Origin: Streptomyces sp. TRM68367 | GTDB lineage: Bacteria > Actinomycetota > Actinomycetes > Streptomycetales > Streptomycetaceae | DNA: 64,000 nt | Reading direction: 5' to 3' | Assembly: GCF_014495685.1 (NCBI RefSeq) | Contig: NZ_JACTVI010000007.1 | Coordinates: 1-64,000, forward strand | Part shown: positions 2,440-63,993 of the stretch, in pieces | How the letters are laid out: every line of letters begins with the position of its first letter | How positions within the stretch are numbered: position 1 is the first letter of the stretch | Translations under genes and position numbers: made by a program | Notes under the pieces: generated by a model | Seen by the model: the letters and a program-made list of their open reading frames with translations, nothing else | Database searches by the model: none | Told to the model about the DNA's origin: nothing

Positions 2440-3450
2440 GCCGACCCGGTCCTCGACACCGCGTTCCACCGGTGTCGAGGGCCGGCTGGGCATCACGGCC
2501 GCGTGCCGGCTGACCGGCCGCTCCAGGGCCACCCACTACCGTCGGCTCAAGCCCCCGGCAACCCCGCGCAGCCCGCTCCCGCGTCCAGGCGCAGCCCTCG
2601 GCTCTGACGGGCCAAGAGCGTGCCGTGGTACTGGAGTTGATGAACAGTGCCGAGTACGCAGAGCTGCCGTCGGCGCAGATCTGGGCCCGTGAGCTGGACG
2701 CCGGCCGCTATCACTGCTCGGTCTCCACGATGTACCGGGTCCTGCGCGAGCACGGGCAGTCCGGCGAGCGGCGTCGTCAGGCCACCCACCCGGCCAAGGC
2801 GGTGCCCGAACTGGTGGCCATCGCCCCCTTGCAGGTCTTGGGATATCACCAAGCTCGCCGGACCGGCCAAGGCATCTGGTACCACGCCTACGTCGTCATC
2901 GACATCTTCAGCCGTTACATCGTCGGGCACACCGTGGAGCGTGCCGAATCCGCGAGCGTGCCGAGGAGTTGATCCGCGAGAGCATCGAATGCAACGGCAT
3001 CGTGCCCGAGGCCGTCCACGCCGACCGGGGCACCTCCATGACGTCCAAGAAGGTCTCCCAGCTGCTGATCGACCTCGGTGTCACCCGCAGTCATTCCCGG
3101 CCGAAGGTCTCCGACGACGCCCCCTACAGCGAGGCCCAGTTCAAGACCACCAAGTACATGTCCGACTACCCGAACGATTCGATTCCCTGGCGCACGCACG
3201 CGAGTGGTTCGACGCGTTCACGTCGTACTACAACCATGAGCACCGGCACTCGGGTATCGGCTGGCACACACCTGCGAGTGTCCACTTCGGCACCGCCGAA
3301 GAGGTCCGCGACCAGCGCGCCGTCACCTCGCCGCGGCCTACACCAGCCACCCCGAACGCTTCGGCCGCCGCCCCACACCACCCGAAACACCCCGGCAAGC
3401 GTGGATCAACGACCCCGCCAACCGCAGGGAACCCACACCACAGATCTCAT
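2440..3450 (+). pseudogene. IS3-family OrfB, rve/DDE transposase, several frameshifts
   Basis: The DDE catalytic core can be followed across three frames. YVVIDIFSRYIVGHTVE (about 2890-2940) carries the first Asp. AVHADRGTSMTSKKV (about 3011-3055) carries the second. PYSEAQFKTTKYMSDYP (about 3122-3170) carries the Glu. The C-terminal part SYYNHEHRHSGIGWHTPASV lies in yet another frame. A local out-and-back shift at about 2840-2870 scrambles the segment that should read WDITKLAGP. The three catalytic acids survive, but no single frame contains them all. Confidence 0.75.
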
Positions 3451-3646
3451 AGCATCACAAACGTCTCACTGGACTTGAAATCTTCCGCGGCGCCCGCCAG
3501 TACGGGACGAGGCTGGGAACTCAGCGACTGTTGCTCACCCAACTCGGCGTCGGCTGCGCGTCCCGGCCCACCTCGTCCTTGCAAGGAGACGACACCGGTC
3601 GTACTGTTTGTGCCCGAACGACTTCGGTCCTTCGAGGGGAGCCGCA

Positions 3647-36564: not shown

Positions 36565-37722
36565 ATGGCCGAGGCATACATCGTCGAAGCGGTCCGCACC
36601 CCGGTCGGCAGGCGAGGCGGCGGACTGTCCGCCGTGCACCCCGCCGACCTCGGTGCGCATGTGCTGGGGGCGCTGATGGAGCGCTCGGGTGCCGACCCGG
36701 CGGCCGTCGAGGACGTCGTGTTCGGCTGCCTGGACGCGGTCGGGCCGCAGGCCGGCGACATCGCCCGCACCTGCTGGCTGGCCGCCGGTCTGCCCGAGGA
36801 GGTGCCCGGCGTGACGGTGGACCGGCAGTGCGGCTCCTCGCAGCAGGCCGTGCACTTCGCCGCCCAGGCGGTGCTGTCGGGCACCCAGGACCTGGTGGTC
36901 GCGGGCGGCGTGCAGAACATGTCGATGATCCCGATCGCCTTCGCCACCCGCCAGGCTGCCGAGCCGCTCGGCATGACGCAGGGCCCCTTCGCGGGCTCCG
37001 AGGGCTGGCGGGCCCGGTACGGTGACCGGCCGGTCAACCAGTTCGTCGGCGCCGAGATGATCGCCGGGAAGTGGGGCATCTCCCGCCTGGACATGGAGGA
37101 GTTCGCGCTGCGCTCCCACCAGCGGGCGGTCCGCGCCATCGACGAGGGCCGCTTCGACCGCGAACTCGTCCCGTACGGCGACGTGACGACCGACGAGGGG
37201 CCGCGCCGCGACACCAGCCTGGAGAAGATGGCCGGCCTGAAACCGGTGATCGACGGCGGCAATATCACCGCCGCCTGCTCCTCCCAGGTCTCCGACGGCG
37301 CCTCCGCCATGCTGCTGGCGAGCGAACGGGCCGTACGGGAACACGGGTTGACCCCGCGTGCCCGCTTTCACCACCTCTCGGTGCGCGGCGAGGACCCCAT
37401 CCGCATGCTGACCGCGCCGATCCCCGCCACGGCGCATGCCCTGAAGAAGACGGGGCTGGCACTCGACGCCATCGACCTGGTCGAGATCAACGAGGCGTTC
37501 GCACCCGTCGTACTGGCCTGGCTCAAGGAGACCGGCGCCGACCCCGACAAGGTCAATGTCAACGGCGGCGCCATCGCCCTCGGCCACCCCCTGGGCGCCA
37601 CCGGCACCAAACTCATGACCACACTCCTGCACGAACTGGAACGCACCGGCGGCCGCTACGGCCTCCAGACGATGTGCGAGGGCGGCGGCCAGGCCAACGT
37701 CACCATCATCGAGCGGCTCTGA
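36565..37722 (+). CDS. fadA6: Acetyl-CoA C-acyltransferase, FadA6-like thiolase
   Basis: A 385-residue thiolase, the same size as FadA6. The acylated cysteine is in TVDRQCGSSQQAVHFAAQAV (about residue 89). The catalytic histidine is in NGGAIALGHPLGATGTKLMT, and the second cysteine is in LQTMCEGGGQANVTI. NEAFAPVVLAWLKETGADPD is also typical. FadA6 carries out the thiolytic step that removes acetyl-CoA from steroid C/D-ring acyl-CoA intermediates. The ATG at 36565 follows AAGGAG; translation is 27 bases downstream of the regulator's stop, in the same operon. Confidence 0.88.
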   Translation: MAEAYIVEAVRTPVGRRGGGLSAVHPADLGAHVLGALMERSGADPAAVEDVVFGCLDAVGPQAGDIARTCWLAAGLPEEVPGVTVDRQCGSSQQAVHFAAQAVLSGTQDLVVAGGVQNMSMIPIAFATRQAAEPLGMTQGPFAGSEGWRARYGDRPVNQFVGAEMIAGKWGISRLDMEEFALRSHQRAVRAIDEGRFDRELVPYGDVTTDEGPRRDTSLEKMAGLKPVIDGGNITAACSSQVSDGASAMLLASERAVREHGLTPRARFHHLSVRGEDPIRMLTAPIPATAHALKKTGLALDAIDLVEINEAFAPVVLAWLKETGADPDKVNVNGGAIALGHPLGATGTKLMTTLLHELERTGGRYGLQTMCEGGGQANVTIIERL

Positions 37723-37733
37723 GACCCTGCTGC

Positions 37734-39374
37734 TCAGGCAGGGCGTGCACGGGCCAGTTCGAGGACGGCCAGGCGGGCCGCTTGGTGTACCGCGACGGTG
37801 CGCAGGCCGGTGCGGGCCGCGAGGGCGGTGAGGTCGGCGACGGTGCGTTCGCGGCCGCCGAAGTAGACCAGCATGCGCAGGTCCATCTCCGTGGGCGGTG
37901 TGCCGTCGGCGCCGGTCTTCTCGATGACGAAGACGCGGCCGTGCCATCCCGCCGCCTGCGCGCAGCGCCGCAGGATGGCGAGGGCCGTGTCGTCGTCCCA
38001 GTCGTGCAGGACGGCGCACAGGAGGTAGCCTCCGGCGCCCGGCGGCAGGGCCTGGAAGAAGTCGCCGGGTACGGCGTCGCCGCGGTCGGTCAGGCCCGCT
38101 GCCGCCAGGGTCTCGCGGGCCGCCGCCGCGGTGTCCGGCTGGTCGAGGACCGTGCCCCGCAGCGCGGGGTAGGCGCTCAGCAGGGCGGTGAGCAGGGTGC
38201 CGTTGCCGCCGCCGACGTCGATCACCTCGCCCAGTGAACCCCAGTCGAAGGCGGGCACGATGTCCTCGGCCCAGGCTGCCGCGTCGGTGCCCATCTGGGC
38301 GTCGTAGGAGGCGGTGCGCACGGGGTCCGCCGCCAGGTCGTCCCAGAAGGGCCTGCCGAACTGGGCCGGGAAGGCGGCCTCGCCGGTGCGCACGCTGTGC
38401 AGCAGCCGGGTGAAGGCCAGATCGGCGCGGCCTACGGCACCGTCGAGGTCCAGTACGGTGCGGAGGCCGGACGGGTGGCCGCCGCGCAGTTCCTGGCCTC
38501 GCGGTGTCAGCGCGTAGCCGGCGAAGGGGTCGTGGGTGAGCACGCCCACCGAGGCCAGGTGCCCCATCAGCCGGTCGAGGGCGTCCGCGTCGGTGCCCGT
38601 GGCCGCGGCCAGTTCGGGTGCCGTGCGCAGTCCCGCCGTGATGTGGTCGGCGAGCCGCAGGGTGGCCGCCACGCGCAAGGCCATCGGCGTCACCAGGTCC
38701 GCCATCGCCCACAGCCCCGTCCCGGCCGAACCGTCCTCCGCCATCAGGCCCTCCCCCATCCCGGCACATGACGACACCAGCCTGTTGGGCCCGGACAGCG
38801 GGCGGCAACCGGTTATCCGCCGGATTCGCACCGTACGGCTGTGCGGGCCGAGCGCAGGTCCGCCCGGCAACTTCTCTCCCCACGCCGCGTCCTGCGCCAG
38901 CTTCTCGGCGATCCGGTCGTGGAAGCTCTTGTGCTCAAGGGCCTCCTCGATGTCGGTGACGACCCGGCAGAGCGGGTACGGGATCTCCGCCTCAAGGTCG
39001 GCCAGGGCCGCCTCGGTGGCCCGCCACTCGGCCGCCAGACGGCCGACGACCCGGCGGGCCTTGTCGGTGAGCATCACCTGTTTCGTGCGCGCGTCGTCCC
39101 CCTCGACGGTCTGCACCCAGCCCGCCTTGCGCATCGCGGCGACCTTCTGGCTCAGCGCCGAATGCGTGCGCTGCACCGACTCGGCCAGGTCCGTGATGGT
39201 CATGGGCCCGTGCGCATGGAGCCGCAGCAACTCCATGACATAGCTCGGCTTGAGCCCGTCGATCCGCTGCTCCGAGTAGACCCGGGCGATGTCGGCGTCC
39301 ATGGCGGCCTGGAGCAGGCGCAGCGGCCGCCAAAGGCTCTGCTCGGTCGGGTCGGGCGCATGAGGATCAGTCAT
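37734..39374 (-). CDS. MarR regulator fused in frame to an O-methyltransferase
   Basis: One uninterrupted frame of 546 codons. Residues 1-170 are a MarR regulator: MTITDLAESVQRTHSALSQK is the helix-turn-helix and DDARTKQVMLTDKARRVVG the wing. After a linker of about 40 residues, residues 211-546 are a class-I small-molecule O-methyltransferase with a dimerisation winged helix (VAATLRLADHITAGLRTAPE), SAM motif EVIDVGGGNGTLLTALLSAY and VLHDWDDDTALAILRR. A strong ribosome-binding site inside the frame (38742-38760) suggests the enzyme can also start at ATG 38744. Either two genes lost the stop between them, or this is a true fusion. It is inserted between fadA6 and ipdC and looks unrelated to steroid metabolism. 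Confidence 0.75.
   Translation of the reverse strand: MTDPHAPDPTEQSLWRPLRLLQAAMDADIARVYSEQRIDGLKPSYVMELLRLHAHGPMTITDLAESVQRTHSALSQKVAAMRKAGWVQTVEGDDARTKQVMLTDKARRVVGRLAAEWRATEAALADLEAEIPYPLCRVVTDIEEALEHKSFHDRIAEKLAQDAAWGEKLPGGPALGPHSRTVRIRRITGCRPLSGPNRLVSSCAGMGEGLMAEDGSAGTGLWAMADLVTPMALRVAATLRLADHITAGLRTAPELAAATGTDADALDRLMGHLASVGVLTHDPFAGYALTPRGQELRGGHPSGLRTVLDLDGAVGRADLAFTRLLHSVRTGEAAFPAQFGRPFWDDLAADPVRTASYDAQMGTDAAAWAEDIVPAFDWGSLGEVIDVGGGNGTLLTALLSAYPALRGTVLDQPDTAAAARETLAAAGLTDRGDAVPGDFFQALPPGAGGYLLCAVLHDWDDDTALAILRRCAQAAGWHGRVFVIEKTGADGTPPTEMDLRMLVYFGGRERTVADLTALAARTGLRTVAVHQAARLAVLELARARPA
38742..38760 (-). promoter_or_regulatory. Internal ribosome-binding site and start for the methyltransferase part
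   Basis: On the minus strand GGGGGAGGGCCTG precedes ATG at 38744, which begins MAEDGSAGTGLWAMADLVTP, a natural N-terminus for this O-methyltransferase family. Independent translation of a 336-residue enzyme (37734-38744) is therefore plausible. Confidence 0.6.
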
Positions 39375-39386
39375 GACGGTGAATAT

Positions 39387-39410
39387 AACAGTACTTATAT
39401 AAGTGCTGTT
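39387..39410. promoter_or_regulatory. MarR-type palindromic operator
   Basis: A 24-base inverted repeat centred at 39398/39399: left arm AACAGTACTTAT, right arm ATAAGTGCTGTT, one mismatched pair. It lies 13 bases upstream of the MarR start codon, so binding would block the gene's own promoter or ribosome access. The next gene on the other side (ipdC, ends at 39440) points toward it and would not be controlled by it. Confidence 0.8.
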
Positions 39411-39439
39411 ACTACTTTGCGGTGATGCTGATGTGGGAG

Positions 39440-40495
39440 TCAGTCCGGGTGGGGCAGACCATGCAGCGCGGCCTGCGCCTCGGCCATGATCCGGTCGACG
39501 AGTCCGGCGCAGGACGGCAGGTCGTCGATCACGCCGGCGACCTGCCCGGAGGCCATCACGCCGAGGTCGGTGCGGCCGTCGACCATCGCGGCCCTGAGCA
39601 GCATGGGGGTGTTGGCGGCGAGCAGGACCTGGCTCCAGGTCAGGTCCTTGCCGTGCTTCATCGCCAGGCCGTCACGGACCATCGCCGCCCAGCTCATGCC
39701 GGTCTCGCGCCGGAAGGCGGCGGCGTGGCGGACCGCGCGCCACAGGGACGCGGCCCGGCCGGAGCGCTCCAGCGTGTCGACGAGTTCGCTGCGCAGCATC
39801 CGGTGGGGCAGGCCGTCGACCTTGGTGGTCACGGTGACGTCCTGCACGGCGGCGGCCAGGTAGCGGGCCTTGACCGGGTGGGGGACGGTGCTGTCGGAGG
39901 TGAGCAGGAAGCGGGTGCCCATGGCGACGCCGGCGGCGCCGTAGGCGAGTGCCGCGACCAGACCGCGCCCGTCATGGAAGCCGCCCGCCGCGACCACCGG
40001 GATGTCGACGGCGTCCACGACCTGCGGCAGCAGCACGGTGGTGGCGACGCTCCCGGTGTGCCCGCCGCCCTCACCGCCCTGCACCACGACCGCGTCCACG
40101 CCCCACGCGGCGACCTTCTCCGCGTGTCGCCGCGCGCCCACGGAGGGGATGACGACCACACCGGCGTCCTTGAGCCGCGCGATCAGCTCACGCGAGGGCG
40201 CGAGCGCGAAGGAGGCGACCTTGACCCCCTCGTCGATGACGATCCCGACCCGCTCGGCCGCATCGCCCGCGTCCGCCCGGACGTTGACTCCGAAGGGCGC
40301 GTCGGTACGGGACTTGACCTCGCGGACCGCCGAGCGGAGCTGATCCACCGTCATGGTGGCGGAGGCCAGGATGCCCAGCGCCCCGGCATTCGCGGTGGCC
40401 GACACCAGGCGGGGGCCGGCCACCCAGCCCATGCCCGTCTGCACGAGGGGATGCCGCACACCGACCAGCTTCGTCAGCGCAGTGTCGATCGTCAT
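39440..40495 (-). CDS. ipdC: Nitronate monooxygenase-family flavoprotein, IpdC-like
   Basis: A 351-residue FMN TIM-barrel protein. VRHPLVQTGMGWVAGPRLVS at the N-terminus, VVVQGGEGGGHTGSVATTVL and VVAAGGFHDGRGLVAALAYG are the flavin-binding signatures of the nitronate-monooxygenase/enoyl-reductase group. In the steroid pathway IpdC is the flavoenzyme needed before ring C can be opened. It is last in the ipdB/ipdA/echA20 operon, and its ATG overlaps the ipdB stop by four bases (ATGA). The assignment rests on sequence type plus the same gene order as Rv3553 next to Rv3552-3550. Confidence 0.84.
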   Translation of the reverse strand: MTIDTALTKLVGVRHPLVQTGMGWVAGPRLVSATANAGALGILASATMTVDQLRSAVREVKSRTDAPFGVNVRADAGDAAERVGIVIDEGVKVASFALAPSRELIARLKDAGVVVIPSVGARRHAEKVAAWGVDAVVVQGGEGGGHTGSVATTVLLPQVVDAVDIPVVAAGGFHDGRGLVAALAYGAAGVAMGTRFLLTSDSTVPHPVKARYLAAAVQDVTVTTKVDGLPHRMLRSELVDTLERSGRAASLWRAVRHAAAFRRETGMSWAAMVRDGLAMKHGKDLTWSQVLLAANTPMLLRAAMVDGRTDLGVMASGQVAGVIDDLPSCAGLVDRIMAEAQAALHGLPHPD

Positions 40496-63846: not shown

Positions 63847-63893
63847 GAGGAGCCTCGCCGACGGCCCGTGCGCCCCTCGGTTAGGGTGGGCCC

Positions 63894-63965
63894 GGGCCGT
63901 GACTGGCGCTGAGGTGGAGCACCACCGGGGAGCGGCCCCGCGGAGCAGATGCCGTGCGCCTGGGC
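63894..63965 (+). promoter_or_regulatory. ZTP riboswitch (pfl motif)
   Basis: The conserved parts are in order. GGGCCGTGACTGGCG is the 5' consensus. GGTGGAGCACCACC is the internal hairpin. GGGGAGCGGCCC pairs back with the 5' strand. GCGCCTGGGC matches the 3' pseudoknot box CCGCCUGGGC. ZTP riboswitches sense the purine/folate-stress nucleotide ZTP and turn on one-carbon genes. A -10-like TTAGGGT lies at 63881-63887. The start codon at 63994 is 28 bases downstream, suited to transcriptional or translational control. Confidence 0.9.
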
Positions 63966-63993
63966 GAACCGAGCACCAGCCCAGGAGTGGATC

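Follow-up and report, generated by a model that had tools for sequence, protein, structure and literature searches.

A probable recent chimeric gene joining a MarR regulator to an O-methyltransferase in a single Streptomyces genome

In Streptomyces sp. TRM68367 we found that a MarR regulator and an O-methyltransferase (OMT) are encoded by a single open reading frame of 546 codons, which starts with ATG and has no internal stop (Table 1; coordinates are those of the window, by which we mean the whole 64,000-nucleotide stretch of DNA analysed). We interpret this frame, with a probability of roughly 60%, as a recent chimeric gene that would give both an autoregulated MarR–OMT fusion and, from an inner start, the OMT alone. 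A first-pass annotation of the same DNA had proposed a true fusion, a dual product or a recent loss of a stop codon. Each proposal was partly right: the joint frame stands, whereas loss of the stop by point mutation does not, and a dual product is favoured by the inner ribosome-binding site (RBS) and ATG, which match those of the OMT gene of Streptomyces pini. The fusion is known from one genome, a draft assembly of 284 contigs.

Table 1. Features of the fused gene and its surroundings (window positions)
Feature	Position	Strand	Basis
Fused frame, MarR–linker–OMT, 546 aa	37734..39374	-	ORF, Pfam
MarR part, residues 1-166	38877..39374	-	comparison with standalone MarRs
Codon 167 (GAG), usual stop site of standalone relatives	38874..38876	-	comparison
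Joint, about 25-31 nt, no significant match to either parent among loci compared	38846..38876	-	
Linker, probably once the 5' leader of OMT	38745..38845	-	homology to S. pini upstream DNA
Near-palindrome CGGATAACCGGTTGCCG in the leader	38803..38819	-	S. pini comparison, genome search
Single T without counterpart in S. pini	38795	-	alignment
Inner RBS and OMT ATG (GGGGGAGGGCCTGATG)	38742..38757	-	
OMT part, 336 aa, NcsB1-like	37734..38744	-	Pfam, structure match
Palindromic operator AACAGTACTTATATAAGTGCTGTT, putative	39387..39410	not assigned	pattern search
-10-like TATATT	39382..39387	-	by eye

Two complete domains in one frame

Both halves of the frame scored above curated Pfam cut-offs. The MarR domain was recognized as MarR_2 (residues 40–96 of 546; 35.7 bits, cut-off 27) and as MarR (26.1 bits, cut-off 24.6), and the OMT carried a complete Dimerisation domain (residues 221–294; 45.5 bits, cut-off 25.6) and a complete Methyltransf_2 domain (residues 322–524; 126 bits, cut-off 22.3). 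The earlier description of a stop-free frame joining a MarR domain to a methyltransferase is thus borne out, as is that of an RBS and ATG inside it, with GGGGGAGGGCCTG standing ahead of codon 211 (A at 38744). An open linker is weak evidence by itself, because in this GC-rich DNA 11309 of 18248 stretches of 135 nt (62%), sampled at 7-base steps along both strands of the window, were open in a given frame; among shuffled linkers 39% were open. What goes beyond chance is the presence of two complete domains in one frame, their relatives being standalone at every locus examined.

The GC content of the linker at codon positions 1, 2 and 3 was 0.67, 0.67 and 0.80, which is no coding periodicity; the corresponding values were 0.72, 0.45 and 0.93 for MarR and 0.78, 0.56 and 0.92 for the OMT. 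Linker residues 166–219 were predicted as coil with pLDDT of about 20–32, in a model built from an alignment of the window and OMT rows only, with no standalone MarR, so that confidence in the MarR part was low too; alignments placing the OMT N terminus on MarR, or the reverse, were set aside for this model. A riboswitch or other structured RNA in the patterned-looking linker was considered and rejected: there was no Rfam match at threshold (best sX9, 12.6 bits, cut-off 44), and the fold was no better than those of shuffled sequences (z +1.0). A ZMP/ZTP riboswitch (RF01750) does lie at the end of the window (63889–63972, forward strand; 57.2 bits, cut-off 39).

The MarR half descends from a MarR–exporter pair

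The MarR part was 63–85% identical to standalone MarR proteins at 33 distinct genome loci, and at least 76% identical at 24 of these. A stop codon of their own was present in all 37 distinct standalone MarRs compared (33 distinct sequences and four plasmid rows), mostly after W-x at codon 167, the 193-aa protein of L032 being longer. The first-pass annotation had advised looking for a stop near 38760–38870 in orthologues. The stop is there, usually at codon 167, just outside that interval, and often overlaps the start of an exporter gene. This gene, encoding a protein of the MFS type, lay 3' of MarR on the same strand and within about 560 nt in 31 of the 33 distinct genome loci, the exceptions being L036 and L118; in 17 of the 31 its start preceded the end of that MarR stop by 9 nt, and at L035 the exporter matched MFS_3/MFS_1 (Pfam). 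The named MarR loci came from Streptomyces, Kitasatospora, Nonomuraea, Actinoplanes, Paractinoplanes and Protofrankia. Each of the 16 named loci carried one half and never both, nine having MarR (L032–L039 and L046) and seven the OMT (L031 and L040–L045).

We also found the MarR on eight plasmid records, and MFS homology was present somewhere in all four that we opened (L138–L141). In L141 an MFS gene comes next after MarR; in L138 a converging gene is next to MarR and the annotated MFS gene is upstream on the other strand; in L139 what looks by eye like the start of an MFS gene separates MarR from an IS21 helper gene; and in L140, which is unannotated, the sequence continues past MarR into a similar MFS-like start, again judged by eye. 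The exporter after MarR is absent or shortened at L036, L118, L138 and L139, with the IS21 helper gene beside one of them. The fused gene has no downstream MFS gene: the OMT is followed by a converging thiolase gene, and the window has no MFS gene at all. Elsewhere in the genome we detected no second MarR copy at E 1e-5, and the best MFS matches, on other contigs, were only 34% and 27% identical.

A similar arrangement is described in PMC6036246, in which sav_4189–sav_4190 comprises a small MarR gene beside a co-transcribed MFS gene, with palindromic sites over its own promoter, and SAV4189 represses its own MarR–MFS operon and is released by the antibiotics HygB and Thi. Two differences stand out against that account: the SAV4189 site is a 13-bp TTGCCYKHRSCAA element (PMC6036246), whereas the palindrome here is 24 bp (AACAG...CTGTT) and indicates another MarR group, and the fused gene has an OMT in place of the MFS gene.

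Using one regular expression, we found the 24-bp palindrome upstream of MarR in 25 of the 33 distinct genome loci. No second site with three or fewer mismatches was found in the 9.67-Mb genome, which led us to reject a wider MarR regulon and makes the gene probably its own only target. By eye, TATATT touches the palindrome and lies 7 nt before the MarR ATG with no RBS between them, so the mRNA is probably leaderless. A simple scan for promoters gave no consensus match.

The OMT half resembles NcsB1

The closest relative of the OMT was a standalone gene in S. pini (82% protein identity over 330 residues). The best solved structure was PDB 3i53 (E 9.4e-99; residues 7–331 of 336), NcsB1 of the neocarzinostatin pathway; the match covers nearly the whole length of the OMT part, although NcsB1 itself is a standalone enzyme. 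The motifs DVGGGNG and LHDWDD are present and align with 3i53. They contain, respectively, the SAM-binding DVGGG motif and the HDW motif. Position 11 of the 3i53 chain, which has a role in substrate binding, is R in that structure and W here, and the substrate may differ. A methyltransferase from plasmid SGLP1 of S. globisporus C-1027 (WP_010056295.1) was 56% identical over 330 residues; its gene stands alone beside a P450 gene with a tyrosine 2,3-aminomutase gene nearby, in contrast to the fused OMT here. The OMT relatives at the Streptomyces plasmid loci L136 and L137 are flanked by an MMPL transporter on one side and a P450 on the other, and genes for an aminomutase or an anthranilate synthase occur in the vicinity.

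Across the other 37 MarRs 52 positions are invariant, and the MarR part departed at 0 of them. The OMT part was compared with 23 OMTs, namely 22 of the closer sequences in a set of 54, with S. pini among them, plus one from a plasmid, and departed at 0 of their 61 invariant positions. A count of 0 was likewise the median for the relatives, and the worst showed 3 (MarR) and 4 (OMT). Judged by these alignments, both halves are without decay, yet this carries little information on the time since they were joined.

The joint was made by recombination

DNA homology between the MarR part and the nine named standalone loci ended at 38871–38880, having begun at 39410–39413 in seven of them and at 39353 in L034 and L037. 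Homology to the S. pini OMT gene began at 38845, 101 nt before the ATG. The matching stretch, which covers most of the linker, agreed with S. pini at 91 of 114 positions (80%), 101 nt of them lying upstream of the ATG, with one single-base gap. It took in the near-palindrome as well as the RBS, and the two species are alike in the inner RBS and ATG. Among all loci compared, only S. pini shared the leader stretch significantly, and for the 25–31 nt of the joint nothing better than E 0.39 was found among the loci compared, the window itself aside. These alignments mark the joint as a product of recombination, because MarR homology ends at 38871–38880 and homology to the upstream DNA of a different gene starts at 38845. 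Loss of the MarR stop by point mutation was rejected: the GAG at codon 167 has no base in common with TGA, position by position, and the DNA downstream is homologous to the upstream region of another gene, not to the exporter.

The linker is probably the former untranslated 5' leader of the OMT gene, which is now read through. Owing to the one-base gap, the upstream stretch is not preserved as a reading frame between the window and S. pini. In S. pini, too, the 69 codons ahead of the OMT ATG are open in frame, so its leader can be called untranslated only presumptively. The near-palindrome differs at one base in S. pini and is the sole exact copy in the TRM68367 genome, where five further sites occur at two mismatches; it is possibly an old OMT operator.

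The continuity of the frame depends on few bases. Removing in silico the T at 38795, which S. pini lacks, ended the MarR frame after 209 aa at a TGA overlapping the OMT ATG (TGATG), and of 132 deletions of one base tried across the linker, 130 closed the frame no later than the OMT start. These results, together with the missing coding periodicity, would suit a two-gene operon in which the leader of the true sequence, or of a very recent ancestor, lacks this base and the two genes are translationally coupled as MarR and MFS genes were. The fused frame would then stem from a sequencing error of one base or from an insertion of very recent date. We consider this unlikely. The T does not lie in a T homopolymer, the joint is well within a contig of 199,873 bases, all 132 single-base insertions kept the MarR frame open throughout the stretch, and S. 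pini, the one sequence available for comparison and a diverged one (80% across the leader), may itself have lost the base. The single-base difference may reflect a recent insertion here, a loss in S. pini, the only relative sharing the leader, or a sequence error, and the operon keeps some weight for this reason.

The cassette lies between converging genes

The MarR–OMT cassette forms an insert of about 1.7 kb (window 37722 to 39440) between two converging catabolic genes, and no neighbouring frame is broken by it. An ipdC-like gene was present in 135 of 199 genus genomes, and in the best 19 of these 135, which we inspected, neither MarR nor OMT occurred within 1.5 kb of it (0 of 19). Thiolase and ipdC-like genes were adjacent and converging in nine of the 19, with a gap down to 36 bp (L096); the other ten had no thiolase match within the 1.5-kb flank. 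At L100 a different insert of about 1 kb occupies the same gap, suggesting an insertion-tolerant spot. By eye, two adjoining forward-strand frames elsewhere in the window (2625–2972 and 2969–3478) resemble transposase pieces.

The earlier statement that the gene interrupts the steroid genes was too strong, as the cassette sits in the gap separating the 3' ends of a converging gene pair and leaves their frames whole. Nor were the names fadA6 and ipdC confirmed by curated models (NCBIfam): the thiolase passes the equivalog model for acetyl-CoA C-acetyltransferase but not the one for the steroid thiolase, and the ipdC-like protein belongs to the nitronate-monooxygenase family and reaches no curated NCBIfam cut-off. 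A steroid reading of these neighbours is plausible.

Its odd position between converging genes and its occurrence in one genome would be consistent with a non-functional recombination chimera in which decay has not yet begun, as would the absent or shortened exporters after MarR at the four loci named above. We regard this explanation as very improbable, given that none of 113 invariant positions is changed and that the operator is intact.

No second fusion was found

Protein searches of 61 relatives, 392 genus genomes and 394 class genomes, the latter two scoring the best three candidates per genome, found no second fusion. Neither did DNA searches over the joint in 392 and 395 genomes (the genome itself being included in each count) or inspection of the 16 named loci, and the plasmid collection held no place covering 80% of the fused gene. 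The genome sets overlap, and the counts are not additive. One match (L004, the same as G007), covering query residues 111–527, seemed to run from MarR into the OMT over a stop, but there is no MarR at L004, and the gene before its OMT is unrelated (by eye). When 13 OMT loci were searched for MarR at E values up to 10, the best hit was at chance level (E 0.07); this set contains L004 but not G121, which gave a like match. Further MarR hits, weaker ones among them, came from G031, G009, G030 and G635.

Regulator–enzyme fusions such as MarR–GNAT, ArsR–methyltransferase, PutA and BirA are widespread families, and like the protein described here they combine a DNA-binding domain and an enzyme in one chain. 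The gene could belong to an established fusion family of its own, whose OMT would reset the switch by modifying the ligand of MarR; two intact domains in one frame and an operator unique to the gene, forming a closed one-gene loop, would fit this. Such a family is the least probable of the explanations we weighed, since no second fusion turned up in the genomes, named loci or plasmids searched, the 13 OMT loci (L004 among them) have no MarR, and the linker resembles a translated leader. Set against the four known families, the present case has a single joint, and its linker is probably such a leader. A search of publication titles, which covers titles only and does not prove absence, found none on a MarR/O-methyltransferase, a MarR/methyltransferase-domain or a general regulator–enzyme fusion.

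Discussion

The comparisons show a MarR gene with its operator–promoter, cut just before its stop and fused to an unrelated NcsB1-like OMT gene whose whole coding region is kept, along with its RBS and DNA from upstream of it. In our preferred reading, a dimer of the MarR domain would bind the palindrome over its own promoter and repress the gene, by analogy with SAV4189, and an aromatic or drug-like ligand would release it. A probably leaderless mRNA would then be translated into the 546-aa MarR–OMT protein. As the sequence stands, a ribosome coming from the MarR start must read into the OMT, which predicts a 58-kDa product. The OMT start within the frame should work too, and the old RBS and ATG would give a free OMT of 336 aa. 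The enzyme would O-methylate an aromatic hydroxyl, and a methyltransferase would thereby have replaced an exporter as the output of the MarR regulator.

This is, so far, a unique chimera, known from one genome, of two well-known and otherwise ordinary families, and it is probably an accident rather than an established fusion protein. A more ambitious suggestion, which we put forward as a long shot, is that the gene is a newborn feedback loop, in which an autorepressor, whose sole operator in the genome lies at its own promoter, carries its own inducer-modifying enzyme and methylation of the inducer by the OMT, fused or free, turns the gene off again. If that were true, we would be seeing a regulatory protein that has only just come into being, joined through a translated 5' leader. 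With relatives of both parents at hand, the origin of the fusion can be traced, from truncation at the stop beside an exporter gene to joining with the leader of another gene. The surviving OMT start would buffer the accident of joining, and the gene may offer a small system for the question of fused versus free enzyme.
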